Shown here one piece after another: positions 5,849 through 64,000 of a DNA stretch of 64,000 nt (positions are counted from its first letter, which is position 1; each line of letters starts with the position of its first letter). The notes under the pieces are model-generated. The model was not told the origin of the DNA, did not search any database, and worked only from the letters and a program-made list of their open reading frames with translations. Source of the DNA: Arenicola marina (taxonomy: Eukaryota > Annelida > Polychaeta > Arenicolidae); NCBI GenBank assembly GCA_964019135.1, contig OZ025256.1:42380035-42444034 (forward strand), written 5' to 3'. The translations under genes and the position numbers were made by a program.

Positions 5849-5849
<1 letters not shown>

Positions 5850-5883: not shown

Positions 5884-5884
<1 letters not shown>

Positions 5885-7734: not shown

Positions 7735-8151
7735 GTGCATGGACCAGGGTCAAATTGCAACAGAATTTCTTTTTGTGGGGATAGTATCTACACATGATCT
7801 AGTACAGCAGAAAAAAGTCTAAAGAAATCTAGGTGGGGGAACATTTTTAAATTTCTATTTGAACATTTTGCATATCTTCACAATGTTAACCACCGATTTC
7901 GTGAGGATTTTGTATGTATACTGTAAGTTTGAGTTGCCTTATAGTCCGGTCATTCTAGCACCACATGGGGTGGACCAGGAACAAATTTCAACATACTTTA
8001 TGTCTGTGGGGATAGTATCTACCCATGTCCTAGTATAACGGAAAAAAATCTAAAGATATCTATGTGGGGGAAACATTTAAAGAAAAGGAATTGAATTTTG
8101 TTCTCTTTTTCAACTTTTTCGGGGCGATTCAACATGATTTTCGTATATATC
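7735..8151. repeat. Two diverged copies of a ~240-bp dispersed repeat
   Basis: The lines GGACCAGGGTCAAATTGCAAC (about 7741) and GGACCAGGAACAAATTTCAAC (about 7974) each start a stretch that continues with GTGGGGATAGTATCTAC, a diverged TCTAAAGA-ATCTA and GGGGGAAACATTT-like text. So the last part of the 4.45-kb unit contains an older internal duplication. An inverted third copy lies outside the array at 32089-32275. Confidence 0.7.
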
Positions 8152-14749: not shown

Positions 14750-14846
<97 letters not shown>

Positions 14847-16518: not shown

Positions 16519-16730
16519 ATCGGCCGTATTACTCCTTTTGTAGCTTATAACACCTCAAAATACAGTTCTAGACAAACTATTGCGTTTAAAGGTGTTTCTT
16601 AAGGTACACAAGAGACATTTCTCATATAAAAGCTGTTAATTTAGCAATTTATAAAAGATATATTTAGACATTAATGTAAAGGTGGCTGGTTAAGCAGGAA
16701 GCTGTAAAGGTCATATCTCGATAATGGAAA
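16519..16730. other. Short unique spacer
   Basis: AT-rich sequence between the 4.45-kb array and the 54-bp minisatellite. No motif or gene recognised. Confidence 0.5.
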
Positions 16731-34975: not shown

Positions 34976-36835
34976 ACTGGGGCAGCGAGCTGGTGTCCCG
35001 GGGAGTGGCTGGGGCAGCGGTCTGGTGTCCCGGGGAGTGGGGAGTGGCTGGGGCAGCGGTCTGATGTCCCGGGGAGTGGGGAGTGGCTGGGGCAGCGGTC
35101 TGGTGTCCCGGGGAGTGGCTGGGGCAGCGGTCTGGTGTCCCGGGGAGTGGCTGGGGCAGCGGTCTGGTGTCCCAGGGAGTGGCTGGGATAGCGGTCTGGT
35201 GTCCCGGGGAGTGGCTGGGACAGCGGTCTGGTGTCCCGGGGAGTGGCTGGGACAGCGGTCTGGTGTCCCGGGGAGTGGCTGGGACAGCGGTCTGGTGTCC
35301 CGGGGAGTGGCTGGGACAGCGGTCTGGTGTCCCGGGGAGTGGCTGGGGCAGCGTTCTGGTGTCCCGGGGAGTGGCTGGGGCAGCGGTCTGGTGTCCCGGG
35401 GAGTGGCTGGGACAGCGGTCTGGTGTCCCGGGGAGTGGCTGGAACAGCGGTCTGGTGTCCCGGGGAGTGGCTGGGACAGCGGTCTGGGGTCCCGGGGAGT
35501 GGCTGGGGCAGCGGTCTGGTGTCTCGGTGAGTGGCTGGGGCAGCGGTCTGGTGTCTCGGTGAGTGGCTGGGGCACTGGTCTGGTGTCCCGGGGAGTGGCT
35601 GGGACAGCGGTCTGGTGTCGCGGGGAGTGGCTGGGGCAGCGGTCTGGTGTCCCGGGGAGTGGCTGGGACAGCGGTCTGGTGTCCCGGGCAGGAGCTGGGG
35701 CAGCGGCCTGGGGTCCCAGGGAGTGGCTTGGGCAGCGGTCTGGGGTCCCAGGGAGTGGCTGGGACAGCGGTCTGGTGTCCCGGAGAGTGGCTGGGGCAAC
35801 GGTCTGGTGTCCCGGGGAGTGGCTGGGGCAGCGGTCTGGTGTCCCGGGGAGTGGCTTGGACAGCGGTCTGGTGTTCCGGGGAGTGGAGAGTGATTAGGAC
35901 AGTGGTCTGGTGTCCCGGGGAGTGGCTGGGGCAGCGGTCTGGTGTCCCGGGGAGTGGCTGGGACAGCGGTCTGGTGTCCCGGAGAGTGGCTGGGGCAGCG
36001 GTCTGGTGTCCCAGGGAGTGGCTGGGATAGCGGTCTGGTGTCCCGGGGAGTGGCTGGGACAGCGGTCTGGTGTCCCGGGGAGTGGCTTGGACAGCGGTCT
36101 GGTGTCCCGGGGAGTGGCTCGGACAGCGGTCTGGTGTCCCAGGGAGTGGCTGGGATAGCGGTCTGGTGTCCCGGGGAGTGGCTGGGATAGCGGTCTGGTG
36201 TCCCGGGGAGTGGCTTGGACAGCGGTCTGGTGTCCCGGGGAGTGGCTTGGACAGCGGTCTGGTGTCCCGGGGAGTGGCTGGGACAGCGGTCTGGTGTCCC
36301 GGGGAGTGGCTGGGACAGCGGTCTGGTGTCCCGGGGAGTGGCTGGGACAGCGGTCTGGTGTCCCGGGGAGTGGCTTGGACAGCGGTCTGGTGTCCCGGGG
36401 AGTGGCTGGGACAGCGGTCTGGTGTCCCGGGGAGTGGCTGGGACAGCGGTCTGGTGTCCCGGGGAGTGGCTGGGGCAGCGGTCTCGTGTCCCGGGGAGTG
36501 GCTTGGACAGCGGTCTGGTGTCCCGGGGAGTGGCTGGGACAGCGGTCTGGTGTCCCGGGGAGTGGCTGGGACAGCGGTCTGGTGTCCCGGGGAGTGGCTG
36601 GGACAGCGGTCTGGTGTCCCGGGGAGTGGCTGGGACAGCGGTCTGGTGTCCCTGGGAGTGGCTGGGATAGCGGTCTGGTGTCCCGGGGAGTGGCTGGGGC
36701 AGCGGTCTGGTGTCCCAGGGAGTGGCTGGGATAGCGGTCTGGTGTCCCGGGGAGTGGCTTGGACAGCGGTCTGGTGTCCCGGGGAGTGGCTGGGGCAGCG
36801 GTCTCGTGTCCCGGGGAGTGGCTGGAGCAACGGGG
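34976..36835. repeat. 32-bp minisatellite, about 57 copies
   Basis: Units of 32 bp: GGGGAGTGGCTGGGACAGCG then GTCTGGTGTCCC, varying at GGGGC/GGGAC/GGGAT/TTGGA and CCCGG/CCCAG. The unit has no stop codon in any of the six frames. Since 32 is not a multiple of three, every frame cycles through all phases, giving apparent ORFs of up to 651 (minus) and 370 (plus) codons. These are artefacts of the repeat. Confidence 0.97.
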
Positions 36836-40554: not shown

Positions 40555-42560
40555 CTATAAGCGCCTGAGGTTCTTCTTGTTGGATTTGCTGCCCACTTTG
40601 TCTGGTTTCCGCTTGACCTGTAGCGAGGCCAGCGCCAATGCACAGTCCTTGGCTCCGTGAAAGGGCGAGCGGCACTTGATGCAGAAGTCGTAGTTGCAGG
40701 CAGTGTTGCTGCAGCGAGCGCGCTCTTGCACCGTGTGGGCTCGAGACGGGCACCCACACTTCGGACATTTCCGTAAGCTCTCGTCATTCTTCAAGCGACT
40801 CGCCTCCTACAATCAAAGTTTTAAAGTACAGGTTTTAACCGTGTGACGTACAACCAGACCTCAGCATATTCAATAGGAGGAGATCGATTTGAGGAGAAAC
40901 CGAAACCATGATGCCTAGTTCTCACTCCTTACCATAGTACACACATTAATTTATTAAATTGATACCATATAAGTATGTAAGAACATTTCGATTTCCCACC
41001 GAGATCTTCCTTAGTTTCTCGCTATCGGTGCATCTGTGAAAAAGTGCAGCTTTCTTTTGGTTTTGGCCTTCACTAACCTGCCAATATTGCAGCGTCTTGC
41101 CAGCAAGAGCAACAGCCGGTGATTCGTGTTGGCATGGCTTGGCGGTATGCTGCACTTCAGCAAAAGGGCTTTTCCCAATAGTCAACTGGCGCTCACTATC
41201 TTTCGGCTGAGGAACATTTTCCTGCAAATAATAGATCATTAATTGGTGAATGAAGTATTCAAAGTAGACATGGCAAATGTACTTGAACACAAAACTTCCC
41301 CAACATGCTACACGCACCTAGTTTATATGCCATTATCAAAGATACACTGATAATGGGTTATTTTGAAACTGTATAAATCTTACCACAATGGATATGATGT
41401 GTTTTGCAAACTAGAACACTTCTGACATAAATGATGAATGGCTAAAAAATAATAAAAAAAATAGAAGAATGAACAGAGCTTCAAACATGCTAAATGCAAT
41501 TTAGAATTTTGTTTACCTTTTGGCGTTGCACACTCTGTAACCGCTGCTTCTTTAGAAATAACTTTCTTCTCTGATTTATGCACTTGTCTTGTGTCACAAT
41601 GTCCTGCCACCCATGACTAACACAGGACATATGACACACGTCTTGATCACTCAGGAACCTCACAATTCTTCTTATGATAACATCCATTCTTCTCCCATCC
41701 AGTTCAGACAATACATCAACATATTCAAGGGCAATTTTCTTCCCTATAAGACGGTCTGGTTCACAAGGCATAAACTGAGACAATTGATGCTGCACATTAA
41801 CACTGTCAACTGTGCTGAGATCCAGCTGTGATTCGTATCCTATATCAGATAGTCTAAGACCAGTCTTGGAACAAGTCTGATTGGGTGAAGCAAAGTATGA
41901 AGGGCTGGTGATAACAGTGGAACATCTATTCAAGTCGCTGGTATTTAAGCTTGCATGTGTCGGGGGCAAATCAGTGGTGGTTCCTTGTGGGGGTGTAGAG
42001 GCCTGACCCTGCTGGTGACTGTCAGAGGTGCACAGCGAACCTGATGGGTGACTCCCAAGCCATGAAATCTTGTCAGACCAGCTGGATGAAGCAGTTTGGA
42101 AATTGGTGGTGACATTTAAAGTCTTGGTCCATTGGATGTTGTCCTGCTTTTCACCACCATTAATTTGTGATGAACACCTGCAGATGACTTTATTGTCATA
42201 ATAAGAACTGGTAGACTGCGTTGCAGAGGAGTCTTGCATCCCATGAAAATTTCCACTAGAAGGCATAAGACTAGAATTATTGAAGACATGGATGCTGCTT
42301 TCAAGGAAGCCACTATCATTTTCAAGATCATTGTGTGACGTAACCACTGTTTTGGAGTTACATGTTCGTAATACTGATGGAGTGCTTGTGCTGCCTTTAC
42401 GACAGGGGAGATTACTGAAGTCGGTTGCTATGTAGTCCAACATCGTATTCTGTTTCTTTATGCGTTTGAAGCCATGACCATCTTCAACAGGACAAGCCAT
42501 GCCTTCATTTCTTTTATTGTCTACTGGATTGTAGCATTCGTCCATTTGAGATGTTTCCAT
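40555..42560 (-). CDS. FBXO43: FBXO43/FBXO5 (Emi2/Emi1)-type APC/C inhibitor, 3 coding exons
   Basis: F-box protein that inhibits the anaphase-promoting complex and so restrains cyclin destruction. Coding exons on the minus strand are 42560-41517, 41221-41078 and 40806-40555, all phase 0, with donors AAAAG|GTAAAC and GGCAG|GTTAGT and acceptors TTTGCAG|GAAAAT and ATTGTAG|GAGGCG. This gives 479 aa (human FBXO5 is 447). An F-box region at residues 267-326 starts DRLIGKKIALEYVDVLSEL, close to human IGRKMGLECVDILSEL. A zinc-binding (IBR-like) domain at 410-451 has Cys 410, 413, 428, 433, 438, 441, His 446 and Cys 451. The C-terminus SNKKNLRRL matches the LRRL tail that blocks ubiquitin chain elongation. 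DSGFLES at 82-88 is a candidate beta-TrCP degron. The acceptor at 42570 precedes the first ATG, so a 5' leader exon lies upstream. FBXO5 and FBXO43 are paralogues; gene order favours FBXO43. Confidence 0.93.
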
Positions 42561-42751
42561 CTCCACCACCTATAAAAATAAAGGTTAAAATAAATAAAAT
42601 TAGCATTTTTAAATCCATAAAGACTTAGGTTAGATATAATATGTTGAAGAGGGTTCTTAATATCTGTTTGTACCATTTATAACAGGCCACTTTATCACTT
42701 GCAGGCTCACACTAAATTTTAGGCTAGCACTGGTAACATTGTCATATAATC

Positions 42752-43159
42752 TTAAAGTTGCATGTCGAGTTCTTTCCCGCCAGAACTAAGCCTAGGCGAA
42801 ATTTATATCAAAATTTGCAGAAAACTCGATTGTTTCATTCTATAAATTCAGAAACCTGATAAACATCGCCGTTTCGGCTGTGGTGTGGCAAACTTGTCTA
42901 TCCCGTGACACCACAGAACTCGGTCGCGACAGTGCTACTTATACCAAAGCATCGCGAAGCACACAAACTGATGACGTTTACCCCTAAAATGAAAACTTGT
43001 GGTAAATTAATATCACGGACAAGGCTAAGAGACATTATTTGGCAGTCTAGTATGGGTGGAGTATAGATAAAAGAAGTCTTGAATGATTCAAGGACTGATT
43101 CTTATATGTATTTTGACCTCATTAGTTTTGGCGGGAAAGAGCTCCACATGCAACTTTAA
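42752..43159. mobile_element. TTAA-flanked MITE in intron 1 of the F-box gene
   Basis: TTAA, then AGTTGCATGTCGAGTTCTTT at the left. The right end is the inverse of it, with GGCGGGAAAGAGCTCCACAT followed by GCAACT and TTAA. The inverted repeats are about 30 bp and the element is 408 bp. It has no transposase. A TTAA target site is typical of piggyBac- or Kolobok-type elements. A second copy in the same orientation is at 49040-49460. Confidence 0.88.
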
Positions 43160-44026
43160 ATGAAAATTCCTTTTACATCATTGGATCAGTTCAGAAATTA
43201 AATGCTAAATCTAATTCAGTCAAGTTTATGAGGGTTTTTTTAAAATTATTATTCTTGATTCAGCATCAAGTTAAGCTTAATCTAATAATGTTTTTAGTAT
43301 TTACAGATAGCCCAAGTGCATGAAACCACTAGTAGTAAATAAAGTCAATGACTCAAAAACATTCACCACCTTTATATCAGGTCTCAATGCAGTGAGTTTC
43401 TTAGAGCGTAAACTGCATAAATGATAGGCAGATAGCAAGATCAAGAGAACTTATCTTGTAAGATTACATTTCATGACATTCCTTTATTTATCCCTGACCT
43501 GTGGAAACTCTGTTTAGTAAGCTTAGATGTAATTTTAAGTAAAAAGAATACAATACCTAAATCTGTCACATGTGAGTCACGTTTTGTTACTTTCAACAAC
43601 CAGACGCCAAGTCCAAGACACACTTCTGTTGGTCCGTTGATCGACAAGCTGACAAGAGGTTTTACCCGTTTACTGCCTACTGGGCGGGATTCGAATCCAG
43701 TTTTTAAAATTTTAAATTAATCAATGAACTTCTGTCATGCAAATTTAGGCGCAAACTTAGATCTTAACTAAACGATCGAAGATCTATGTAAGAGGAGACT
43801 ATTTGTATATTATAGCTAATATAGGGTCGTGGTGTAACGATCGGTTAAAGTGAAAGAGTGACGTTCTGTTGTTTCTGTTCGGTGTGGCCACTGACTGTCA
43901 CGGCCTGGGAAGCCATGCCCTCGGCCAGCTGTTTAACAGGCCTAAACCGCAAGCGATTTTTGCTAAAAACTCTCGGAGAATGAAAAGATCTGACACAAAC
44001 TTTGTGATATTCATATAAAACAAACC

Positions 44027-44165
44027 TCCAGCTTCGTATTGTCACACTGTCGAAGGCCGATTCCAATAGTATCGCAGTTTATCAGATATTTTTCTGGTGT
44101 TGTGCTTGGCGTAGCTCTCCGCTGACGGGTACACAAATTCAGATTTGGAGCGAAAAACAAAACCA
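44027..44165 (-). other. Candidate 5' leader exon of the F-box gene
   Basis: The minus-strand sequence ends in CTGGAG|GTTTGT, a good splice donor at 44026/44025, that could join the acceptor at 42570. From 44226 to 44027 the minus strand contains no ATG, which suits a non-coding leader and supports the ATG at 42560 as start. The 5' limit is a guess. The intron would be 1456 bp and would contain the MITE. Confidence 0.45.
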
Positions 44166-44230
44166 GCCAATGAGCGTCGAGCGTGAGCGCCACGAGATCT
44201 TGGGCAACGATTGCGAGATTTGTCACGGGC
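44166..44230 (-). promoter_or_regulatory. Candidate promoter of the F-box gene
   Basis: GC-richer stretch with an inverted CCAAT box (ATTGG on the minus strand; CCAAT at 44167-44171 on the plus strand) just upstream of the proposed leader exon. CCAAT boxes are usual in cell-cycle gene promoters. No TATA box seen. Confidence 0.35.
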
Positions 44231-45189
44231 TGTTACTATAATGCAAACTCGGTATATATGGAAGAGGAACTAGGAGTGGGAGGTAGGACTACAGCCACAG
44301 AACTGGGGCTAGGGGAGAGGGTGGGGAAGTGGAGGGGGGCCGTATTTGTCTTTACTTCCAAAGTCAAAGTTTGGTCAAGAAATTACTATTATAAATAAGT
44401 TACATTATTAATTTATTTCACATTTCACCACTGCCCCCCACCCCCTGGCTGGAGTGATGGTTACACAGTACGTGGTTGTCCAATTATCGAAACACACCTT
44501 GTATATCTAAAGTATTTGAAAAGCTATTATGTACACAGCAAATGTCCTTTGTCGCCAAACCTCTGGTGTTAGAGAAGGGCACATAGGCCCTATATGTCAA
44601 AGCGTATATGACTTTTATTGTTTAATATTCCAAAAGGCAAAATAGTATTAGATGGCAATGGAATGCGGGCCATCGCATATGGCTCAAATTAAGCAGTCGA
44701 TTGTTAATTTCTAAAATGAACAATTTTTCTGATGATATAACACGGTGGTAAGGTTTTTAGCAGCGAAAGGCGGCATCCAAAATAACAACAAGAAGGCCAG
44801 CCCCAATAATTACTTAAAAGGAAATAAAACATGTGTGATAATAATTCTTTTAACTTTTCGATGCAGAACAATTAAGAAGCAAAAAATGTTATATTATGAG
44901 GCATCTAACTAGATCATCGACTGAACTTCGGGAGCCATATATTCTATTTATGTAAAAACACGTGCAGATTAAAGTCTCAGTGTGTCAATGGTTATTGACA
45001 GCAAGTAAAAACTATTTGAGTCTTTCGATCGTACTTTCTCAGTTTACTGCAATCATGTCGAATGACAATATATACTGATCGTCTACTGCGCGACATTATA
45101 CAATGCGCAACAGGAAGAAAAGATACAAGAACGTACGCCTTTCACAATTTATGCAAGATTATCAACAAGACCTCCTTAATTGGTATGTA
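44231..45189. other. Intergenic between the divergent genes, part 1
   Basis: AT-rich, with no recognised gene or repeat. Open frames are short and lack motifs. Confidence 0.4.
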
Positions 45190-45195
45190 ATGTAG

Positions 45196-45449
45196 CAGGG
45201 GTGGATTCAGGAATTGCAAGTGTGTGTGTGGGGGGAGGGGGGGGGGTCCCTGAACAAAATTGTCACAGGGAATCCACCATTTTTTTTACGACCGAGAGGG
45301 GGGGGGGGCGGGGGCGGTCCACGCCGCATCAGATAGCATTCTTGCTCAAAAAGCAGGGGGGGGGGTGGTGTCACGCATCAGATGGCCTAAATTTTGCATT
45401 AAAATACGGCACACCCTGGACAACCCCAACCCCCCTGGATCCGCCCTTG
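45196..45449. mobile_element. hAT-like MITE
   Basis: Starts CAGGGGTGGATTCAGGA and ends CTGGATCCGCCCTTG, inverted ends of the same family as the element at 29034. ATGTAG flanks it on both sides (45190-45195 and 45450-45455). The interior is G-tract rich and non-coding. Confidence 0.75.
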
Positions 45450-45455
45450 ATGTAG

Positions 45456-46749
45456 TACAGATCGAAGGAAGCGAATGCGTTTTGAAGGATAAGCCATGTA
45501 ACACCTTCTCCGTGAATAGGAATTATTGGAGATTCGATCGCGATTAGCTCAGTGTTGGCAATTTCTGGGTATCGCTATCCGTAAAATTACTGGTTCAACG
45601 CGAAGACCCTAACTTTACCCATTGTGTAAACCGCGATACGGCATAGTAGTCCTCGAAAGGGGCTTGTGCAGAAATGCTTGAAAGGGGGGTGGAGACACAA
45701 AAGCATGCGTGTAAATGCCAGAGGTACAGGTGACTGTGGTGCACAAACTTGGAAAGGGGGAGGGGTAAGGCATATCTTAGGGTCTGAAAGGGAAGGGGAC
45801 ACGTACCGTCGCCTCCTGTGCTCCGGCCCCCACCCCTGACAAGCGGGCAGAGAATTTGAAAAAAACGTACGTGCCACCCCCCAAGCAGTAATGTATCGCA
45901 CCTGGTTTGACGTTTCTCTCTGTCAAATAGTCCTAACCAAACTGCTGCCCCCCCCCCACACCACCCCGTTTTTTCTTGCCAGGTCCGCCATTTAAGATGT
46001 CTGTGCAGCTTTCAGCTAACAGCTCGATTATAACCAAAACATCAATAGGCTACAAAACAGGTCACAAAAATTCGTAATTATCACATAAATTTTTGCCTTT
46101 CGAAGCGTATATGCAATTACGGAATAGTATGTGTATTTGCTTGTAATATATAGGATCCATGTAAATATTTAATGTCACAGGGTTCGATATTGGTAAATTG
46201 TCATTGTAACCGCAAAGTGCAAAAAAAAAAATCTTTGAGAAATCCGCAAAGCGACTCCCGCGCGCGACCTTAAGTTCGTCTTTTAGTAACAGCCTGCGAG
46301 ACGCATACTTCTGGACAGTGAGCGTGCAAGTTGCGAAAGTAAACAAGTTCTTTTGCGCAGGTAAATTAAACAGTTCTTTATTTCATGTCGTTGTCGTCTG
46401 TTTGTATGTTTACTTGGTTTATTGGTTATTACAGGCTCATCAATATTTGAGCGCTAGGCATATCGTTAAATTTAATATCTTAATGATTTGTTTTCTGACC
46501 GCATCCCCTATTATCGCTGACCTGAAACTGAGAAAGAGCAATCATTGGCATAAACTTAGAACGTTTTCTTCTATTAGAAGAAAAGCGTAGAGCCTAGGCT
46601 AGTGGCCATTCGTACGGGCCTATATCAATAAATTGTGTGACTATTGGTACAGCACTTGGTCACATGACATACTAATTAATTACTTGTTCGTGAGACCTTA
46701 TCAGCTTATTCACCTCAATCTAAAAAGAGCAGAGTGTGTTATGATATGC
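45456..46749. other. Intergenic between the divergent genes, part 2
   Basis: No gene recognised. Around 46250-46360 the sequence is richer in CpG and ends in GCGCAG|GTAAAT (donor at about 46359), a possible 5' leader exon for POLR2K. A 15-mer, GCGAAAGTAAACAAG, at 46333 recurs at 48067. Confidence 0.3.
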
Positions 46750-46873
46750 ATATGATATGGAATTGCATCGAGTGCGAGATGGGTTTATCTCAGCACAAGT
46801 CTCAAAAATCTTTTTTTCAGATTTCGGAGATGTGTGCTGAAAAACCCATCTTGCAGAGAAGCAATGCTATATG
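46750..46873. repeat. Long imperfect inverted repeat (hairpin)
   Basis: Two arms of about 57 nt with a loop of only a few nt. The left arm runs ATTGCATC.. then GAGATGGGTTTATCTCAGC and ACAAGTCTCAAAAATC. The right arm read in reverse complement gives GCATTGCTTC.. then AAGATGGGTTTTTCAGC and ACACATCTCCGAAATC. It could be a foldback transposon remnant or the template of a hairpin RNA. Confidence 0.8.
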
Positions 46874-47673
46874 TGTTTTCTCGCTTGAATAGAACTTCAA
46901 ACGTTGCCATTAAGTCAACATGGAGATTTAACGATGACAATAATACTCATGACTGCACATAAATATTTGGTCAAAATCATAACAGTGGCGCGCAATAGCA
47001 CCAGTAATTAAGTGTTGCTCACAACATGTTTCCCTGGAGATATGACGTCAAAGTGATTATACCTCTGCAGTAGAGGTAGCCCTGGTACATGCCTCTTTTA
47101 CCATGCTCGTAAATGGAGCAAGGGTGAGAGCCATGCCGCTGACATGGCCGAAAACAAGAAATCGCGGACCGGTGGCTCAAGTTGAAGTTCATAACAGAAT
47201 AAATATGCAGTGCCTACCCGTCAAGTTGCTCTATTAGATTCCTGAAGCTTTCATGACTTTCGTCGGACAGTCATTTCTTTGGTTGGTAATGTATTTTCTT
47301 GTAATCCGGGCGATTTATATCCTTTCTCGCTTCGTTTTAAATGCTCCGCCGCTCGCCGGAAGTAAACAAATGCCGCCTGGCAGCGAGTCCTCACGCTGAA
47401 AATCCTCCTTGTGTTGAACCAAAAATTGCACAAACAACTTGCGGGATAATGATCTATAATATGTCCATAACGTAATAGTCCATAACTAAAATATCATTTG
47501 TTATTCAATGTTTATAATCTAATAAAATAGAATATCTTTCTCTATTTATTACATATTTATTACATATAAAGCTATTAACATGATTACGTTTTCTTTTTGT
47601 ATATAAATGATTCACAGTGATAACAGTTTTACTGATGGAGAATGGTCGGTAGGAAGTGATGAGAGATAAATCA
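46874..47673. other. Intergenic, with an ETS-like site
   Basis: No gene recognised. CCGGAAGT (47356-47363) is the consensus ETS/GABP site common in housekeeping promoters and lies in a CpG-richer patch (about 47330-47400). It could belong to the POLR2K promoter. A minus-strand GGATATAAATC is nearby. Assignment is tentative. Confidence 0.3.
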
Positions 47674-47674
47674 T

Positions 47675-48353
47675 TACCGTATTTCACGTATGTTTTCGGA
47701 TACTGTATGTTTTCGGACACCCCCTCAAAGGCAGAAATAGGATACATTTTGTGTACTGTAAGTTTTCGGACACCCAATGCAGATAATTTTTCAAGTGTAT
47801 GTATATTTTCGGATACTATCGGACCTAAATTAACAATGCGTCTAGGCTCCTTTGTTATTGCGTAGTGCCGGCCCCCATGATTGCACTTCACTGCTTGTGA
47901 TTGCAGACTTTCGGAGAGAGGGGCAAGTCTCTGTCTAGGGGCTTATTTGTGCAGTGTATTAGGTGTAAAAGAGCAACACCTTGGTTTCTAAGTAATGAGC
48001 TGGATTTTGGTCTCCATTGGGCTGGCCGGCGGACGAGTCAGTCGGCGGATGAGTTGTTTATAAACCGCGAAAGTAAACAAGCCTTAAATCACGGAATGCA
48101 TGAAAGTATTTGATTAATTTATTTTACCGAAGATCACCTTACCCGCTGTTAAGGTGTAAAGCAGCAACACCTGGGTGTTAAGTGATATAATCGGCATCAG
48201 TCGACTCGCAATGTAGTAGTTATTAATCGATATTTTGTTATGTATGTATGTTTTCGGACAGTGGATGCGGGATTCCATTTTATTGACTAAATATTCGGAC
48301 AGCCAGAAAAACAATTATTTTTAAGTGTCCGAAAACATACGTGAAATACGGTA
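47675..48353. mobile_element. Inverted-repeat DNA element with TATGTTTTCGGA repeats
   Basis: The left end is TACCGTATTTCACGTATG followed by TTTTCGGA. The right end is its exact reverse complement over 26 bp. The flanks fit a TA (or ATT) target duplication. Inside the left half, GTATGTTTTCGGACACCC-type text recurs several times, and AAGGTGTAAA(A/G)(G/C)AGCAACACCT occurs twice (about 47960 and 48150). It has no transposase. Probably non-autonomous, perhaps mariner-like if the TA duplication is right. Confidence 0.78.
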
Positions 48354-48941
48354 TTACTATAATCAGCACATGGCTGTTTATATATATGTTGATGGATACT
48401 TTTGCTGGCTAAAGTGCCAGGTGGCATGGTTTTTTGTGTCTGGCAATGGACATACATTATATAGCCTTAGGTGGGATAAAAGTACCATGTGGCGAAGTTA
48501 TGCTGTATGATGAAGTTACATAGGACAAATGGTGTCACAAATTTATCAAGGTTCAAGACAGTGTGAGACAACTGGTACTGTGCCAAAGTTACTGAGGATA
48601 AAATTCCCATGAAACTAGTATGATACTATTTTACTGGAGATGGAATTACTATGTGCCAGTAACTAATTTACTGAAACTGCTATGTCACTAATTACTGAAG
48701 ATGAAACTTCTATGTAACAAATTTTCTGGGAATGAAACTTCTATGTAACAATTTTTCTCGTTTATGAAACTGCTATGTAATTTTAGTTACTGGAGATCAA
48801 ACTATATTTTACTGGAGACCAATGAACTATATGAAATACCAGGTTGTAACTATAGAATCACTATATGCCATATGGAATACACTATAGAAGGGCATTTGCA
48901 ACATTCTTCACTGATATCATTTGTTTCAGACTTTGCCGACC
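48354..48941. other. Upstream region of POLR2K
   Basis: AT-rich. Between 48590 and 48800 a loosely repeated phrase of the type ATGAAACT(T/G)CTATGTAAC recurs about every 40 bp. TTTGTTTCAG|ACTTTGCCGACC at 48920-48941 looks like a splice acceptor just before the start codon, implying a 5' leader exon upstream. Confidence 0.45.
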
Positions 48942-50729
48942 ATGGAGGCTGATAAGAAGGAACCTGCTGTGCAGCCTAAGCTGTCTGTTATGGTCTACAC
49001 CTGTGGAGGTAAACCATTGCTACTTAGCCATGACACCCATTAAAGTTGCATAACGAGCTCTTTCCCACCAAAACCAAGCCCAGGCTATATATATATATAT
49101 ACTGGTATATCAAAATTTGCAGAAACTCAATTGTTTCATCCTGTATGTTCAGAAACCTAACAAACATCGCCATTTCGACTGTGATGTGGCAAACGTGTCT
49201 ATCCCTGGACACCACAGAACGCTTGTCACGGCACTGCTACTTATACCAAAGCATAGCGAAGCACACAAACTGATGACGTTTACCACTAAGTTAAAAATCT
49301 GTGGCAAATTGATATCATGGGCAAGACAAAGATACTCCATTTGGTTGTCTGGCATGCATGGAATATAGACGAATGCAATCTTGGATGATTCAAGATTGAT
49401 TCTTATTTGTATTGTGACTTCTTTAGTTTGAGCAGGAAAGAGCTCCATATGCAACTTTAATGTGCCTTGCATTATTTAAAACAAAAAAGTTTGAATTATG
49501 TAAATATATGTCTCTTCTGGATTCAATTTTTTTCAGTTAGTTTTTCTCAAAAAATGCAAATTACATATTTTACACTGTAAGTTGTATATATGCATCAATC
49601 CAGGTATTTTTCTTTCATGTTTTCGTACATGGAGGGTCTACCCTGGTACAAGACATAAGACATAATGGCATATTAATAGGTCCGAAGCTGGGCACATAAA
49701 CTGGAATAGGTTTGAGCCATTCATCATCCCGACCTGTTTCTTTAGACAAATTTAGCCCTTGTGTGAACAAAAGCAGTGATTCTGATAGGTACGCCAGTGG
49801 GTGGGTCCCAATGCCCCAGAGCTCCTATAAAATTATGGGACATTTAAAAAGATAATGGGATATTAATTTAAATGAAATATTGCATAGTCTGTATGCTATT
49901 TTACTTGAAGGAAACCCCTTACTGAGTAATTACATATACACTATTTTCTGATACTATACCTATAGTAACCTACAAATTCTAACATGCATTGCATTATCAG
50001 CAGCTGATCCTGGGTCACCATGTCCAACCTGGACCTGTATGGTGTAGGGCCCCGATTCTGGACAGAGAAACCCCTCTCACAGCGAGCTGTTTGTACATAT
50101 TTAAATGCATCCTCATGTCCCCTCACAGCTCAATGAAATACGTCATGTAAGTTTTTTGTGAGACAAATGACGCAGGAAAAGTGCAAAATTGAAATCTTTT
50201 TTTCCTTTTTCTTGCACGTGAACACACGTTCAGGTGCTGTTGACGACTATTTTCTGCTATTTGCAGAGTGCCATCAGGAGAATGAGATCAAAGCCAGAGA
50301 TCCAATCCGTTGTCGGGAATGCGGATACAGAATCATGTACAAGAAGCGAACGAAAAGAAGTATCCTTTATAACAGGCCATCTGCTCCACATACACTTAGT
50401 GTGCAGTCTGCACATTTCAACCAATTCCCAGCGGTCAAGAAGCTCATATATAAGTAAAAGAAAAGAACCAAGATTCTTACATAAATTAGGATCAATGTAG
50501 CCTAAAACTGCTGGTTGTTTAATTATCTGGAGCGTTTTTCTTAGATTTACTTATATTTTCGGGTATTTGTTTTAGCTGGGCAATCATATATATGGTATAC
50601 GATTTTCTCTCTATGTACCGTGAATAAGACCTAAAGGAACCGTGTCGTAGTTACTGCGGCTGTGGTAGTCGTGCCTTGGGCTTTGGCTCCTTAACCCGAG
50701 TCTCAGTGGTGGTGTTTGACGGCCGATGA
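48942..50729 (+). CDS. POLR2K: RNA polymerase I/II/III subunit POLR2K (RPABC4/Rpb12), 3 exons
   Basis: Smallest shared zinc-ribbon subunit of RNA polymerases I, II and III, acting in the nucleus. Exons are 48942-49008, 50267-50359 and 50707-50729. Splice sites are TGTGGAG|GTAAAC, TTTGCAG|AGTGCC, AAAAGAA|GTATCC and GTCTCAG|TGGTGG; the joins complete codons GAG (Glu 23) and ATG (Met 54). The product is 60 aa (human 58). Zinc ligands are Cys 21, 24, 38 and 41 in CGEC..CREC. Residues 27-53, including [17 protein letters not shown] and [10 protein letters not shown], are nearly identical to human. The C-terminus reads MVVFDGR where human has LVVFDAR. The start has a good context (GACCATGG) just after a splice-acceptor-like TTTCAG. 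The third exon has only 23 nt and is easily missed. Confidence 0.95.
49040..49460. mobile_element. TTAA-flanked MITE in intron 1 of POLR2K
   Basis: Second copy of the family at 42752, same orientation, 421 bp, about 15% diverged. The ends are TTAAAGTTGCATAACGAGCT and its inverse, ending GCAACTTTAA. A (TA)n run at about 49086-49104 accounts for some of the extra length. No transposase. Confidence 0.88.
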
Positions 50730-50747
50730 CAGTGTCTTTGCACCCCA

Positions 50748-51085
50748 CGCCCCGGATGTGACGTCACTGTCACGTCATCGCCCCGGATGTGACGCCATAG
50801 TCACGCCCTGGCCCCGGTTGTGACGTCATACTCACACCCTCGCCCCGGATGTGACGTCATAGTCACACCCTCGCCCCGGATGTGACGTCATAGTCACGCC
50901 CTGGCCCCGGATGTGACATCATAGTCACACCCTCGCCCCGGATGTGACGCCATAATCACGCCCTGGCCCCGGATGTGACGTCATTGTCACGCCATCGCCC
51001 CAGGTGTGATGTCATAGTCACCCCTTCGCCCCGGATGTGACATCATTGTCACGCCATCGCCCCGGATGTGACGTCATAGTCACCC
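50748..51085. repeat. 31-bp minisatellite with CRE palindromes after POLR2K
   Basis: Eleven units of about 31 bp: CGCCCCGGATGTGACGTCAT then AGTCAC(A/G)CCCT. Six units keep a perfect TGACGTCA; others read TGACGCCA, TGACATCA or TGATGTCA. The array begins 18 bp after the POLR2K stop codon, so at least part of it is probably in the 3' UTR. TGACGTCA is the consensus CREB/ATF site. Confidence 0.93.
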
Positions 51086-53324: not shown

Positions 53325-56300
53325 TCACCCACCCTCACATCACCGTATCTTACATGTAAATCACCCAGCCTTACTTACTGATCACCTCACCTTGTCTTAC
53401 ATGTAAATCACCCAGCCGTACTTACTGGTCACATCACCTTGTCTTACATGTAAATCACCCAGCCTTACTTACTGGTCACATCACCTTGTCTTACATGTAA
53501 ATCACCCAGCCTTACTTACTGGTCACATCACCTTGTCTTACATGTAAATCACCCAGCCTTACATACTGGTCACATCACCTTGTCTTACATGGCAATCACC
53601 CAGCCTTACTTACTGGTCACATCACCTTGTCTTACATATAAATCACACAGCCGTACTTACTGGTCACATCACCTTGTCTTACATGTAAATCACCCAGCCT
53701 TACTTACTGGTCACATCACCTTGTCTTAGATGTAAATCACCCAGCCTTACTTACTGGTCACATCACCTTGTCTTACATGTAAATCACCCAGCCTTACATA
53801 CTGGTCACATCACCTTGTCTTAGATGTAAATCACCCAGCCTTACTTACTGGTCACATCACCTTGTCTTACATGTAAATCACCTAGCCTTACTTACTGGTC
53901 ACATCACCTTGTTTTAGATGTAAATCACCCAGCCTTACTTACTGGTCACATCACCTTGTCTTACATGTAAATCACCCAGCCTTACTTACTGGCCACATCA
54001 CCTTGTCTTACATGTAAATCACCCAGCCTTAATTACTGGTCACATCACCTTGTCTTACATGTAACTCACCCAGCCTTAATTACTGGTCACATCACCTTGT
54101 CTTACATGTAAATCACCCAGCCTCAATTACTGGTCACATCACCTTGTCCTACATGTAAATCACCCAGCCTTACTTACTGGTCACATCACCTTACCTTACA
54201 TGTAAATCACCTTGCCTTACATGTAAATCACCCAGCCTTACTTACTGGTCGCATCACCTTGTCTTACATGCAAATCACCCAGCCTTACTTACTGGTCACA
54301 TCACCTTGTCTTACATGTAAATCACCCAGACTTACTTACTGGTCACATCACCTTGTCTTATATGTAAATCACCCAGCCTTACTTACTGGTCACATCACCT
54401 TGTCTTACATGTAAATCACCCAGCCTTACTTACTGGTCACATCACCTTGTCTTACATGGCAATCACCCAGCCTTACTTGCTGGTCACATCACCTAGTCTT
54501 ACATGTAAATCACCCAGCCTTACTTACTGGTCGCATCACCTTGTCTTACATGTAAATCACCCAGCCTTAATTACTGGTCACATCACCTTGTCTTACATGG
54601 CAATCACCCAGCCTTACTTACTGGTCGCATCACCTTGTCTTACATGTAAATCACCCAGCCTTAATTACTGGTCACATCACCTTGTCTTACATGGCAATCA
54701 CCCAGCCTTACTTACTGGTCACATCACCTTGTCTTACATGTAAATCACCCAGCCGTACTTACTGGTCACATCACCTTGTCTTACATTAAATCACCCAGCC
54801 TTACTTACTGGTCACATCACCTTGTCTTACATGTAAATCACCCAGCCTTACTTACTGGTCACATCACCTTGTCTTACATGTAAATCACCCAGCCTTACAT
54901 ACTGGTCACATCACCTTGTCTTAGATGTAAATTACCCAGCCTTACTTACTGGTCACATCACCTTGTCTTACATGTAAATCACCTAGCCTTACTTACTGGT
55001 CACATCACCTTGTCTTACATGTAAATCACCCAGCCTTACTTACTGGTCACACACCCTTGTCTTACATGTAAATCACCCAGCCTTACTTACTGGCCACATC
55101 ACCTCGTCTTACATATAAATCACCCAGCCTTACTTACTGGCCACATCACCTTGTCTTACATGTAAATCACCCAGCCTTACATACTGGTCACATCACCTTG
55201 TCTTAGATGTAAATCACCCAGCCTTACTTACTGGTCACATCACCTTGTCTTACACGTAAATCACCCAGCCTTACTTACTGGCCACATCACCTTGTCTTAC
55301 ATGTAAATCACCCAGCCTTAATTACTGGTCACATCACCTTGTCTTACATGTAACTCACCCAGCCTTAATTACTGGTCACATCACCTTGTCTTACATGTAA
55401 AGCACCCAGCCTCAATTACTGGTCACATCACCTTGTCCTACATGTAAATCACCCAGCCTTACTTACTGGTCACATCACCTTACCTTACATGTAAATCACC
55501 TTGCCTTACATGTAAATCACCCAGCCTTACTTACTGGTCGCATCACCTTGTCTTACATGCAAATCACCCAGCCTTACTTACTGGTCACATCACCTTGTCT
55601 TACATGTAAATCACCCAGACTTACTTACTGGTCACATCACCTTGTCTTATATGTAAATCACCCAGCCTTACTTACTGGTCACATCACCTTGTCTTACATG
55701 TAAATCACCCAGCCTTACTTACTGGTCACATCACCTTGTCTTACATGTAAATCACCCAGCCTTACTTACTGGTCACATCACCTTGTCTTACATGGCAATC
55801 ACCCAGCGTTACTTACTGGTCACATCACCTTGTCTTACATGTAAATCACCCAGCCGTACTTACTGGTCACATCACCTTGTCTTACATGTAAATCACCCAG
55901 CCTTACTTACTGGTCACATCACCTTGTCTTACATGTAAATCACCCAGCCTTACTTACTGGTCACATCACCTTGTCTTACATGTAAATCACCCAGCCTTAC
56001 ATACTGGTCACATCACCTTGTCTTACATGGCAATCACCCAGCCTTACTTACTGGTCACATCACCTTGTTTTACATATAAATCACCCAGCCGTACTTACTG
56101 GTCACATCACCTTGTCTTACATGTAAATCACCCAGCCTTACTTACTGGTCACATCACCTTGTCTTACATGTAAATCACCCAGCCTTACTTACTGGTCACA
56201 TCACCTTGTCTTACATGTAAATCACCCAGCCTTACATACTGGTCACATCACCTTGTCTTAGATGTAAATCACCCAGCCTTACTTACTGGCCACATCGCTT

Positions 56301-59300
56301 TGTCTTACATGTAAATCACCCAGCCCTACTTACTGGTCACATCACCTTGTCTTACATGTAAATCACCCAGCCTTACTTACTGGTCACATCACCTTGTCTT
56401 ACATGTAAATCACCCAGCCTTACTTACTGGTCACACCCCCTTGTCTTACATGTAAATCACCCAGCCTTACTTACTAGCCACATCACCTCGTCTTCCATAT
56501 AAATCACCCAGCCTTACTTACTGGCCACATCACCTTGTCTTACATGTAAATCACCCAGCCTCACTTACTGGTCACATCACCTTGTCTTACATATAAATCA
56601 CCCAGCCTTATTTACTGGTCACATCACCTTGTCTTACATGGCAATCACCCAGCCTTACTTACTGGTCGCATCACCTTGTCTTACATGTAAATCACCCAGC
56701 CTTAATTACTGGTCACATCACCTTGTCTTACATGGCAATCACCCAGCCTTACTTACTGGTCACATCACCTTGTCTTACATGTAAATCACCCAGCCTTACT
56801 TACTGGTCGCATCACCTTGTCTTACATGTAAATCACCCAGCCTTACTTACTGGTCACATCACCTTGTCTTACATGGCAATCACCCAGCGTTACTTACTGG
56901 TCACATCACCTTGTCTTACATGTAAATCACCCAGCCGTACTTACTGGTCACATCACCTTGTCTTACATGTAACTCACCCAGCCTTAATTACTGGTCACAT
57001 CACCTTGTCTTACATGTAAATCACCCAGCCTCAATTACTGGTCACATCACCTTGTCCTACATGTAAATCACCCAGCCTCAATTACTGGTCACATCACCTT
57101 GTCCTACATGTAAATCACCCAGCCTTACTTACTGGTCACATCAGCTTACCTTACATGTAAATCACCTTGCCTTACATGTAAATCACCCAGCCTTACTTAC
57201 TGGTCGCATCACCTTGTCTTACATGCAAATCACCCAGCCTTACTTACTGGTCACATCACCTTGTCTTACATGTAAATCACCCAGACTTACTTACTGGTCA
57301 CATCACCTTGTCTTATATGTAAATCACCCAGCCTTACTTACTGGTCACATCACCTTGTCTTACATGTAAATCACCCAGCCTTACTTACTGGTCACATCAC
57401 CTTGTCTTACATGGCAATCACCCAGCCTTACTTGCTGGTCACATCACCTAGTCTTACATGTAAATCACCCAGCCTTACTTACTGGTCACATCACCTTGTC
57501 TTACATGTAAATCACCCAATCTTACTTACTGGTCGCATCACCTTGTCTTACATGTAAATCACCCAGCCTTACTTACTGGTCACATCACCTTGTCTTACAT
57601 GTAAATCACCCAGCCTTACTTACTGGTCACATCACCTTGTCTTACATGTAAATCACCCAGCCTTACTTACTGGTCACATCACCTTGTCTTACATGTAAAT
57701 CACCCAGCCTTACATACTGGTCACATCATTTTGTCTTACATGGCAATCACCCAGCCTTACTTACTGGTCACATCACCTTGTTTTACATATAAATCACCCA
57801 GCCGTACTTACTGGTCACATCACCTTGTCTTACATGTAAATCACCCAGCCTTACTTACTGGTCACATCACCTTGTCTTACATGTAAATCACCCAGCCTTA
57901 CTTACTGGTCACATCACCTTGTCTTACATGTAAATCACCCAGCCTTACTTACTGGTCACATCACCTTGTCTTACATGTAAATCACCCAGACTTACTTACT
58001 GGTCACATCACCTTGTCTTATATGTAAATCACCCAGCCTTACTTACTGGTCACATCACCTTGTCTTACATGTAAATCACCCAGCCTTACTTACTGGTCAC
58101 ATCACCTTGTCTTACATGGCAATCACCCAGCCTTACTTGCTGGTCACATCACCTAGTCTTACATGTAAATCACCCAGCCTTACTTACTGGTCGCATCACC
58201 TTGTCTTACATGTAAATCACCCAGCCTTAATTACTGGTCACATCACCTTGTCTTACATGGCAATCACCCAGCCTTACTTACTGGTCGCATCACCTTGTCT
58301 TACATGTAAATCACCCAGCCTTAATTACTGGTCACATCACCTTGTCTTACATGGCAATCACCCAGCCTTACTTACTGGTCACATCACCTTGTCTTACATG
58401 TAAATCACCCAGCCGTACTTACTGGTCACATCACCTTGTCTTACATTAAATCACCCAGCCTTAATTACTGGTCACATCACCTTGTCTTACATGTAACTCA
58501 CCCAGCCTTAATTACTGGTCACATCACCTTGTCTTACATGTAAAGCACCCAGCCTCAATTACTGGTCACATCACCTTGTCCTACATGTAAATCACCCAGC
58601 CTTACTTACTGGTCACATCACCTTACCTTACATGTAAATCACCTTGCCTTACATGTAAATCACCCAGCCTTACTTACTGGTCGCATCACCTTGTCTTACA
58701 TGCAAATCACCCAGCCTTACTTACTGGTCACATCACCTTGTCTTACATGTAAATCACCCAGACTTACTTACTGGTCACATCACCTTGTCTTATATGTAAA
58801 TCACCCAGCCTTACTTACTGGTCACATCACCTTGTCTTACATGTAAATCACCCAGCCTTACTTACTGGTCACATCACCTTGTCTTACATGGCAATCACCC
58901 AGCCTTACTTGCTGGTCACATCACCTAGTCTTACATGTAAATCACCCAGCCTTACTTACTGGTCGCATCACCTTGTCTTACATGTAAATCACCCAGCCTT
59001 AATTACTGGTCACATCACCTTGTCTTACATGGCAATCACCCAGCCTTACTTACTGGTCGCATCACCTTGTCTTACATGTAAATCACCCAGCCTTAATTAC
59101 TGGTCACATCACCTTGTCTTACATGGCAATCACCCAGCCTTACTTACTGGTCACATCACCTTGTCTTACATGTAAATCACCCAGCCGTACTTACTGGTCA
59201 CATCACCTTGTCTTACATTAAATCACCCAGCCTTACTTACTGGTCACATCACCTTGTCTTACATGTAAATCACCCAGCCTTACTTACTGGTCACATCACC

Positions 59301-62300
59301 TTGTCTTACATGTAAATCACCCAGTCTTACTTACTGGTCGCATCACCTTGTCTTACATGTAAATCACCCAGCCTTACTTACTGGTCACATCACCTTGTCT
59401 TACATGTAAATCACCCAGCCGTACTTACTGGTCACATCACCTTGTCTTACATGTAAATCACCCAGCCTTACTTACTGGTCACATCACCTTGTCTTACATG
59501 TAAATCACCCAGCCTTACTTACTGGTCGCATCACCTTGTCTTACATGTAAATCACCCAGCCTTACTTACTGGTCACATCACCTTGTCTTACATGGCAATC
59601 ACCCAGCGTTACTTACTGGTCACATCACCTTGTCTTACATGTAAATCACCCAGCCGTACTTACTGGTCACATCACCTTGTCTTACATGTAAATCACCCAG
59701 CCTTACTTACTGGTCACATCACCTTGTCTTACATGTAAATCACCCAGCCTTACTTACTGGTCACATCACCTTGTCTTACATGTAAATCACCCAGCCTTAC
59801 ATACTGGTCACATCACCTTGTCTTACATGGCAATCACCCAGCCTTACTTACTGGTCACATCACCTTGTTTTACATATAAATCACCCAGCCGTACTTACTG
59901 GTCACATCACCTTGTCTTACATGTAAATCACCCAATCTTACTTACTGGTCGCATCACCTTGTCTTACATGTAAATCACCCAGCCTTACTTACTGGTCACA
60001 TCACCTTGTCTTACATGTAAATCACCCAGCCTTACTTACTGGTCACATCACCTTGTCTTACATGTAAATCACCCAGCCTTACTTACTGGTCACATCACCT
60101 TGTCTTACATGTAAATCACCCAGCCTTACATACTGGTCACATCATTTTGTCTTACATGGCAATCACCCAGCCTTACTTACTGGTCACATCACCTTGTTTT
60201 ACATATAAATCACCCAGCCGTACTTACTGGTCACATCACCTTGTCTTACATGTAAATCACCCAGCCTTACTTACTGGTCACATCACCTTGTCTTACATGT
60301 AAATCACCCAGCCTTACTTACTGGTCACATCACCTTGTCTTACATGTAAATCACCCAGCCTTACATACTGGTCACATCACCTTGTCTTAGATGTAAATCA
60401 CCCAGCCTTACTTACTGGCCACATCGCTTTGTCTTACATGTAAATCACCCAGCCCTACTTACTGGTCACATCACCTTGTCTTACATGTAAATCACCCAGC
60501 CTTACTTACTGGTCACATCACCTTGTCTTACATGTAAATCGCCCAGCCTTACATACTGGTCACATCACCTTGTCTTACATGGCAATCACCCAGCCTTACT
60601 TACTGATCACATCACCTTGTTTTACATATAAATCACCCAGCCGTACTTACTGGTCACATCACCTTGTCTTACATGTAAATCACCCAGCCTTACTTACTGG
60701 TCACATCACCTTGTCTTACATGTAAATCACCCAGCCTTACTTACTGGTCACATCACCTTGTCTTACATGTAAATCACCCAGCCTTACATACTGGTCACAT
60801 CACCTTGTCTTAGATGTAAATCACCCAGCCTTACTTACTGGCCACATCGCTTTGTCTTACATGTAAATCACCCAGCCCTACTTACTGGTCACATCACCTT
60901 GTCTTACATGTAAATCACCCAGCCTTACTTACTGGTCACATCACCTTGTCTTACATGTAAATCACCCAGCCTTACTTACTGGTCACACCCCTTTGTCTTA
61001 CATGTAAATCACCCAGCCTTACTTACTGGCCACATCACCTCGTCTTACATATAAATCACCCAGCCTTACTTACTGGCCACATCACCTTGTCTTACATGTA
61101 AATCACCCAGCCTCACTTACTGGTCACATCACCTTGTCTTACATATAAATCACCCAGCCTTATTTACTGGTCACATCACCTTGTCTTACATGGCAATCAC
61201 CCAGCCTTACTTACTGGTCGCATCACCTTGTCTTACATGTAAATCACCCAGCCTTAATTACTGGTCACATCACCTTGTCTTACATGGCAATCACCCAGCC
61301 TTACTTACTGGTCACATCACCTTGTCTTACATGTAAATCACCCAGCCGTACTTACTGGTCACATCACCTTGTCTTACATTAAATCACCCAGCCTTACTTA
61401 CTGGTCACATCACCTTGTCTTACGTGTAAATCACCCAGCCTTACTTACTGGTCACATCACCTTGTCTTACATGTAAATCACCCAGCCTTACTTACTGGTC
61501 ACATCACCTTGTCTTACATGTAAATCACCCAGCCTTACTTACTGGTCACATCACCTTGTCTTACATGTAAATCACCCAGTCTTACTTACTGGTCGCATCA
61601 CCTTGTCTTACATGTAAATCACCCAGCCTTACTTACTGGTCACATCACCTTGTCTTACATGTAAATCACCCAGCCTTACTTACTGGTCACATCACCTTGT
61701 CTTACATGTAAATCACCCAGCCTTACTTACTGGTCACATCACCTTGTCTTACATGTAAATCACCCAGCCTTACTTACTGGTCGCATCACCTTGTCTTACA
61801 TGTAAATCACCCAGCCTTACTTACTGGTCACATCACCTTGTCTTACATGGCAATCACCCAGCGTTACTTACTGGTCACATCACCTTGTCTTACATGTAAA
61901 TCACCCAGCCGTACTTACTGGTCACATCACCTTGTCTTACATGTAAATCACCCAGCCTTACATACTGGTCACATCACCTTGTCTTACATGGCAATCACCC
62001 AGCCTTACTTACTGGTCACATCACCTTGTTTTACATATAAATCACCCAGCCGTACTTACTGGTCACATCACCTTGTCTTACATGTAAATCACCCAATCTT
62101 ACTTACTGGTCGCATCACCTTGTCTTACATGTAAATCACCCAGCCTTACTTACTGGTCACATCACCTTGTCTTACATGTAAATCACCCAGCCTTACTTAC
62201 TGGTCACATCACCTTGTCTTACATGTAAATCACCCAGCCTTACTTACTGGTCACATCACCTTGTCTTACATGTAAATCACCCAGCCTTACATACTGGTCA

Positions 62301-64000
62301 CATCATTTTGTCTTACATGGCAATCACCCAGCCTTACTTACTGGTCACATCACCTTGTTTTACATATAAATCACCCAGCCGTACTTACTGGTCACATCAC
62401 CTTGTCTTACATGTAAATCACCCAGCCTTACTTACTGGTCACATCACCTTGTCTTACATGTAAATCACCCAGCCTTACTTACTGGTCACATCACCTTGTC
62501 TTACATGTAAATCACCCAGCCTTACATACTGGTCACATCACCTTGTCTTAGATGTAAATCACCCAGCCTTACTTACTGGCCACATCGCTTTGTCTTACAT
62601 GTAAATCACCCAGCCCTACTTACTGGTCACATCACCTTGTCTTACATGTAAATCACCCAGCCTTACTTACTGGTCACATCACCTTGTCTTACATGTAAAT
62701 CGCCCAGCCTTACATACTGGTCACATCACCTTGTCTTACATGGCAATCACCCAGCCTTACTTACTGATCACATCACCTTGTTTTACATATAAATCACCCA
62801 GCCGTACTTACTGGTCACATCACCTTGTCTTACATGTAAATCACCCAGCCTTACTTACTGGTCACATCACCTTGTCTTACATGTAAATCACCCAGCCTTA
62901 CTTACTGGTCACATCACCTTGTCTTACATGTAAATCACCCAGCCTTACATACTGGTCACATCACCTTGTCTTAGATGTAAATCACCCAGCCTTACTTACT
63001 GGCCACATCGCTTTGTCTTACATGTAAATCACCCAGCCCTACTTACTGGTCACATCACCTTGTCTTACATGTAAATCACCCAGCCTTACTTACTGGTCAC
63101 ATCACCTTGTCTTACATGTAAATCACCCAGCCTTACTTACTGGTCACACCCCTTTGTCTTACATGTAAATCACCCAGCCTTACTTACTGGCCACATCACC
63201 TCGTCTTACATATAAATCACCCAGCCTTACTTACTGGCCACATCACCTTGTCTTACATGTAAATCACCCAGCCTCACTTACTGGTCACATCACCTTGTCT
63301 TACATATAAATCACCCAGCCTTATTTACTGGTCACATCACCTTGTCTTACATGGCAATCACCCAGCCTTACTTACTGGTCGCATCACCTTGTCTTACATG
63401 TAAATCACCCAGCCTTAATTACTGGTCACATCACCTTGTCTTACATGGCAATCACCCAGCCTTACTTACTGGTCACATCACCTTGTCTTACATGTAAATC
63501 ACCCAGCCGTACTTACTGGTCACATCACCTTGTCTTACATTAAATCACCCAGCCTTACTTACTGGTCACATCACCTTGTCTTACGTGTAAATCACCCAGC
63601 CTTACTTACTGGTCACATCACCTTGTCTTACATGTAAATCACCCAGCCTTACTTACTGGTCACATCACCTTGTCTTACATGTAAATCACCCAGCCTTACT
63701 TACTGGTCACATCACCTTGTCTTACATGTAAATCACCCAGTCTTACTTACTGGTCGCATCACCTTGTCTTACATGTAAATCACCCAGCCTTACTTACTGG
63801 TCACATCACCTTGTCTTACATGTAAATCACCCAGCCTTACTTACTGGTCACATCACCTTGTCTTACATGTAAATCACCCAGCCTTACTTACTGGTCACAT
63901 CACCTTGTCTTACATGTAAATCACCCAGCCTTACTTACTGGTCGCATCACCTTGTCTTACATGTAAATCACCCAGCCTTACTTACTGGTCACATCACCTT
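53325..64000. repeat. Second 47-bp minisatellite, about 227 copies, runs off the window
   Basis: Units of 47 bp: TTACTTACTGGTCACATCAC then CTTGTCTTACATGTAAATCA and CCCAGCC. Recurring variants are ATGGCAATC, TTAATTACT, TCGCATCAC, GGCCACATC, TACATATAAATC and a 46-bp unit with CATTAAATC. Near the end a block repeats exactly at 2161 bp (46 units, one of them 46 bp): CATT of the 46-bp variant at 61377 and 63538, and ATCATTTTGT at 60143 and 62304. A compound partial unit (CTTACCTTACATG) marks earlier blocks at about 54190, 55480, 57145 and 58620. Apparent 98-codon frames are repeat artefacts. Confidence 0.97.

Follow-up and report, generated by a model that had tools for sequence, protein, structure and literature searches.

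Whether two genes standing head to head in an annelid genome have kept this arrangement since the ancestor shared with vertebrates, and what could have held them together, is the question raised by a locus of the polychaete Arenicola marina. The window, that is the whole 64,000-nt stretch of DNA analysed, covers C9:42380035-42444034, where C9 denotes contig OZ025256.1 (43.4 Mb, 5% of a genome of 867 Mb in 762 contigs). It carries a complete gene of the FBXO5/FBXO43 (Emi/Rca1) family on the minus strand (coding sequence (CDS) 40555-42560) and a complete POLR2K (RPABC4/Rpb12) gene on the plus strand (CDS 48942-50729). In a preliminary description of the window, the locus was delimited at 40555 and 50729, which is where the stop codons of the two genes end. 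The reading of this locus as ancient microsynteny, put forward in that description, is well supported for this worm and mammals, as the pair is adjacent in sheep and worm and divergent in cattle and worm. Very probably, the annelid-vertebrate ancestor possessed a single FBXO5/43-type gene head to head with POLR2K, and the vertebrate duplicate FBXO43 stayed beside POLR2K.

Two complete genes in divergent orientation

The three coding exons of the F-box gene (Table 1), delimited by GT donors and AG acceptors, splice to a protein of 479 aa that matches the Pfam F-box PF00646 (7.4e-06, 26.1 bits for a cut-off of 20.5) and also Pfam IBR. The spliced protein was compared to the PDB using phmmer, where the available relatives are human FBXO5 and the zinc region only of FBXO43. 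Human FBXO5 (Emi1) was retrieved at 7.6e-24 with the C-terminal 210 residues of the worm protein aligned, including the F-box, D-box region, zinc-binding region and LRRL tail, whereas the N-terminal part is unaligned. The last exon alone retrieves FBXO5 (7.6e-12) and FBXO43 (6.5e-11). The zinc-binding region follows the F-box, and the protein terminates in KKNLRRL-stop, an Emi-type LRRL tail. At the D-box site, the worm protein has a degenerate KSPFAEVQ where human FBXO5 has RTPLASVQ, with an acidic residue at P6; the elements of Emi1 include the zinc region, D-box and LRRL tail, and D-boxes with Lys at P1 and with Phe at P4 have been recorded (PMC5717348). A KEN motif at residue 348 spans a splice junction and a DSGFLES motif is located at residue 82. 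The latter resembles the beta-TrCP degrons of Emi1 and Emi2. Judged from its sequence, the gene is a member of the FBXO5/FBXO43 family of inhibitors of the anaphase-promoting complex/cyclosome, and its product is a predicted inhibitor. An NCBIfam scan of this gene added nothing.

The POLR2K gene splices to 60 aa and a stop codon. Its product matches human POLR2K with phmmer (2.8e-26, residues 7-60 on human residues 5-58), including the zinc ribbon and the conserved C-terminus. The NCBIfam scan returned archaeal RpoP-type matches only, all below the cut-off, and a scan of bacterial and archaeal contigs with the worm protein confirmed no relative. The ATG is preceded, at a distance of 12 bases, by the end of a clear acceptor, and the gene therefore probably has a non-coding first exon upstream of the CDS. 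Only the best candidates were scored in genome-wide searches, and each gene was represented by one match: the last exon of the F-box gene among 4 candidates and the POLR2K domain among 63.

The claim that the two genes are divergent neighbours therefore stands: both are complete, and no gene recognisable by Pfam lies between them. No Pfam domain exceeded its curated cut-off in any of the 38 listed open reading frames (ORFs) of at least 50 aa that overlap 44243-48941, nor in the frame of the proposed leader exon of the F-box gene; weak matches below the cut-off were seen in 4 of the 10 gap ORFs displayed to E 1, the best at E 0.0023. Rfam and tRNA scans of the 64-kb window gave no match.

Mammalian counterpart and vertebrate paralogues

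A table for sheep chromosome 9 places SPAG1 at 76741376-76818820, POLR2K at 76826125-76827336 and FBXO43 at 76838577-76849876, together with RGS22 and VPS13B and with orientation unstated (PMC6334744); POLR2K and FBXO43 are 11.2 kb apart by these coordinates. On cattle chromosome 14, the annotation of variant rs211058631 reads 'FBXO43 upstream/POLR2K upstream' (PMC7529513); being upstream of both genes, the variant implies that their 5' ends face each other. In human, FBXO43 and POLR2K are both among the 8q22.2 genes (PMC7954304), are contained in the chromosome 8 interval from 100.1 to 101.6 Mb (PMC2851616) and occur in one amplicon list (PMC3617176), and POLR2K is upstream of SPAG1 (PMC12311433). 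One intron position in POLR2K is also common to human and worm: the human intron follows c.61 (PMC12311433) and so splits the codon of Glu21 after its first base, and the first coding intron of the worm gene splits the codon of the aligned Glu23 in the same way. The human neighbours proposed at 8q22.2 are thus in keeping with the sheep order, the divergent cattle annotation and the human listing. The two human genes are themselves divergent neighbours. The mammalian locus (human 8q22.2, cattle 14, sheep 9) has the same two neighbours as the worm, with facing 5' ends in cattle, and differs in its flanks: SPAG1 and RGS22 flank the pair in sheep and neither was found near the worm pair, which is surrounded by tandem arrays and transposon-like ORFs. 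Annelids are protostomes, and an arrangement inherited in common with mammals hence reaches the bilaterian ancestor; if the homology is right, the divergent mammalian arrangement predates the protostome-deuterostome split.

Of 50 aligned residues of the zinc region, the worm protein has 20 in common with FBXO43 and 18 in common with FBXO5; 26 are common to the two human proteins. The discriminating sites are split into 6 FBXO43-like and 4 FBXO5-like (P 0.75), for the zinc region alone in the case of FBXO43. The single match in the worm genome and the near-equal similarity to both human proteins favour a duplication on the vertebrate side; the worm gene seems to be single-copy and, going by these comparisons, is probably a co-orthologue of FBXO5 and FBXO43. 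It had been described as the positional FBXO43 orthologue. The positional part can be retained, as the location suggests that FBXO43, and not FBXO5, occupies the ancestral place beside POLR2K; one-to-one orthology has to be given up for a single gene about equally similar to both. Human FBXO5 is located at a locus other than FBXO43-POLR2K, next to MTRF1L. The latter was sought in the worm via RF-1, which gave two matches, on C14 and C11, and none on C9. The pair offers a positional criterion for deciding which vertebrate Emi paralogue holds the ancestral locus, a point left unsettled by the short sequences compared.

Probable inheritance and retention of the pair

The proposed history runs as follows. 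The two genes would at first have faced each other at close range, 5' end to 5' end, and shared a promoter region, an arrangement often seen in housekeeping genes. In both lineages the distance between them may then have grown to several kb, and what kept them side by side could be a remnant of regulatory dependence or simply chance. The worm would have kept the pair, and the vertebrate F-box gene would have duplicated to FBXO5 and FBXO43, the FBXO43 copy retaining its place beside POLR2K. Of this history, we infer what the ancestor possessed, when the duplication took place and how the promoters evolved. Bidirectional promoters account for the arrangement of 25% of neighbouring protein-coding genes in amphioxus, with an enrichment for housekeeping functions, and chordates have 372 putatively ancestral 5'-5' pairs with bidirectional promoters, the majority of which were lost in vertebrates (PMC6292497). 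The worm pair resembles these ancestral chordate pairs in that divergent neighbours were long kept and a ubiquitous housekeeping-type gene is involved, and differs in that its inferred transcription starts are several kb apart.

Of the explanations for the retention of the pair, the one that fares best is that it survives from an ancestral linkage group by slow rearrangement, without any functional tie. It was confronted with five 8q22 markers (Table 1), assigned to the worm genome by family only, whose human counterparts are listed between 99.2 and 105.9 Mb of chromosome 8 (PMC2851616). Two of the five are on C9, which exceeds the 5% genome share of this contig (binomial P 0.023), and C9 thus seems to retain part of the ancestral linkage. 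WDSOF1 is another name for DCAF13, the human markers belong to band 8q22, and a second worm 14-3-3 gene, on C11, reads as epsilon. Against survival by slow rearrangement, even the nearest marker is separated from the pair by 4.4 Mb, with none inside 4 Mb, and other chromosomes carry three of the five; local order is thus otherwise scrambled among the markers tested. Slow rearrangement is nevertheless somewhat favoured, and we lean towards it as the null over shared regulation that still holds the pair.

Active constraint, in which the FBXO43-type gene and POLR2K would still share cis-regulatory elements (promoter region or enhancer) and selection would act against their separation, is the next candidate and a rather doubtful one. 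The pair persists while the five other markers scatter over C2, C9 and C14, as this explanation would have it, but five markers are few. No compact shared promoter is visible: the start codons are 6382 bp apart in the worm and the genes 11.2 kb apart in sheep. The distance of about 4.7 kb given in the preliminary description is valid between the POLR2K start codon and the proposed F-box leader exon near 44242; it does not apply between start codons, and the leader is only predicted. The ratio of observed to expected CpG (CpG o/e) displays two separate peaks, one in the proposed leader (1.29) and one at 48000-48300 (1.37), with 0.84 between them (44243-47999), which looks like two promoters. 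It falls to 0.32 at 48301-48941 and is 0.53 in the POLR2K coding span; on the other side, the F-box gene has 0.33 in its first coding exon, 0.23 at 43.0-43.5 kb and 0.77 in its whole proposed first intron, which contains an element resembling a miniature inverted-repeat transposable element (MITE). Gene bodies are methylated and starts are not in amphioxus and other non-vertebrates (PMC6292497). Gene-body methylation of this invertebrate type would give the observed CpG pattern, and from it, combined with the splice signals, we infer one transcription start near 44.2 kb and another at about 48.0-48.3 kb, a separation of some 4 kb. The last exon of the F-box gene, with a CpG o/e of 0.91, fits this placement poorly. 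In bidirectional promoter pairs, transcription starts lie within about 1 kb of each other.

A bolder form of shared regulation appears improbable. FBXO43-POLR2K would be a regulatory unit of bilaterian age in which elements of the gap continue to act on both genes in the germ line; the meiotic FBXO43 would have kept its seat for this reason, and FBXO5 would have left and become the mitotic copy. Whichever applies, the pair offers a clean case for asking whether shared regulation or slow rearrangement accounts for deeply conserved neighbours.

Several observations weigh against common descent of the arrangement. The comparison spans two lineages, this worm and mammals, and the duplication is timed on 50 aligned positions in three sequences. 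Neither flanking gene of the sheep locus was found by the worm pair in searches that read exons singly, from which genes may escape: for SPAG1, RPAP3_C gave three matches (C20, C1 and C9:15.68 Mb), the nearest 26.7 Mb away, and for RGS22, six RGS matches were obtained on C4, C19 and C10, with none on C9. Vertebrates moreover lost 84% of the microsynteny blocks of the bilaterian ancestor, so that retention of the pair is not the expected fate, although these blocks comprise at least 3 genes and a pair is not directly comparable (PMC8851819). An ancient FBXO43-POLR2K pairing was not found stated in the literature searched, supplementary tables lying outside that search; the papers that name both genes treat, by their titles, tumours, cattle, sheep or, in one case, single-cell methods, and the main text of one coleoid microsynteny paper names neither POLR2K nor any FBXO gene.

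Chance or convergent adjacency, the obvious alternative to inheritance, gains something from the pair having been picked after the fact, presumably out of many windows. In a genome of 20,000 genes, the probability that a gene has one particular divergent neighbour by chance is about 1 in 40,000, which amounts to something of the order of one orientation-specific shared pair expected per genome comparison. Conserved gene pairs, attributed to Irimia in 2012, reportedly number hundreds, and a shared pair is therefore far likelier to be inherited. Coincidence being this improbable, the arrangement is best read as inherited from the bilaterian ancestor. The genes do sit between long tandem arrays, where assemblies can fail, yet an assembly artefact is the least credible explanation of all, with a repeat fraction of 0.00 in both 5-kb bins of 40-50 kb and a contig of 43.4 Mb.

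Surroundings of the pair and mitochondrial contig

Table 1. Features of the locus (window coordinates, position 1 being the first letter) and worm positions of the 8q22 markers (contig and, where given, Mb)
Feature	Position	Strand	Basis
First coding exon, F-box gene	41517..42560	-	ATG, DSGFLES motif, F-box; splice sites; aligns to human FBXO5 residues 233-293
Second coding exon, F-box gene	41078..41221	-	KEN across splice junction; D-box-like KSPFAEVQ; splice sites
Last coding exon, F-box gene	40555..40806	-	Zinc-binding region, C-terminal LRRL tail; Pfam IBR; phmmer to FBXO5/FBXO43
Proposed non-coding leader exon, F-box gene (start uncertain)	44026..44242	-	Donor GAG/GTTTGT; open frame without ATG; CpG o/e 1.29
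Region between proposed F-box leader and POLR2K start codon, without recognisable genes	44243..48941		Pfam, Rfam and tRNA scans
Guessed POLR2K leader exon, position weak	48020..48072	+	Donor-like AAA/GTAAAC at 48073; CpG o/e
POLR2K coding exon 1	48942..49008	+	Spliced CDS; phmmer 2.8e-26 for spliced 60 aa
POLR2K coding exon 2, zinc ribbon	50267..50359	+	Pfam PF03604 2.3e-15; spliced CDS
POLR2K last coding exon, MVVFDGR-stop	50707..50729	+	First base of M codon in exon 2
YWHAZ marker, 14-3-3 zeta/beta-type	C9:10.68 Mb
Sof1/DCAF13-type marker	C9:38.06 Mb
COX6C marker	C2
POP1 marker	C2
ATP6V1C-type marker	C14

The gene pair forms an island between two arrays, at 16729-27741 (54-bp unit, 204 copies) and 53335-64000 (47-bp unit, 227 copies), and the high repeat content extends beyond the window to about C9:42.46 Mb. 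A smaller tandem repeat of 31 bp starts 15 bases past the POLR2K stop codon (11 copies, 50744-51083); six of its copies carry the exact CRE-like palindrome TGACGTCA. Two copies of one MITE-like element, 83% alike, are found within introns, at 42804-43159 (F-box gene, proposed first intron) and at 49106-49460 (POLR2K, first coding intron), with partial copies in the left flank. Direct duplications of a 4.4-kb unit occupy 3693-16519: the segments 4363-8800 and 8826-13248 are 98.7% identical, a third, broken copy begins at 13274 and a further piece precedes the first copy. The GC-rich array at 34977-36825 (32-bp unit, 57 copies) is open in several frames of both strands, with no evidence of a gene. 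When ORFs within 100 kb on either side were scored, transposon-like ORFs topped the best 60 of 1725; as the same score ranks known exons poorly (40, 134, 187 and 393 of 1725), it cannot show that host genes are absent.

The RPAP3_C matches were considered as candidates for SPAG1 and rejected on C20 and C1, where the translations look like CCDC103 and RPAP3, respectively. The third, at C9:15676149-15676250, is a lone RPAP3_C-like stretch at the end of an apparent tandem array of 77- to 79-bp units.

The mitochondrial contig (C762, 15,942 bp) encodes 13 protein genes, all on one strand, in the order nad4L, nad4, [rRNA space], nad1, nad3, nad2, cox1, cox2, atp8, cox3, nad6, cob, atp6, nad5. These names were assigned by reading the translations. 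The order matches the annelid ground pattern gene by gene and thereby points to an annelid host. ARAGORN called 25 tRNAs, three of which look spurious (two on the other strand, one inside nad4L), and about 1 kb separates trnR from trnH. In the annelid mitochondrial genomes studied so far, all genes are on one strand and their order is largely conserved (PMC4505326), and the longest mitochondrial non-coding stretch of siboglinids is likewise located between trnR and trnH (PMC10815697).

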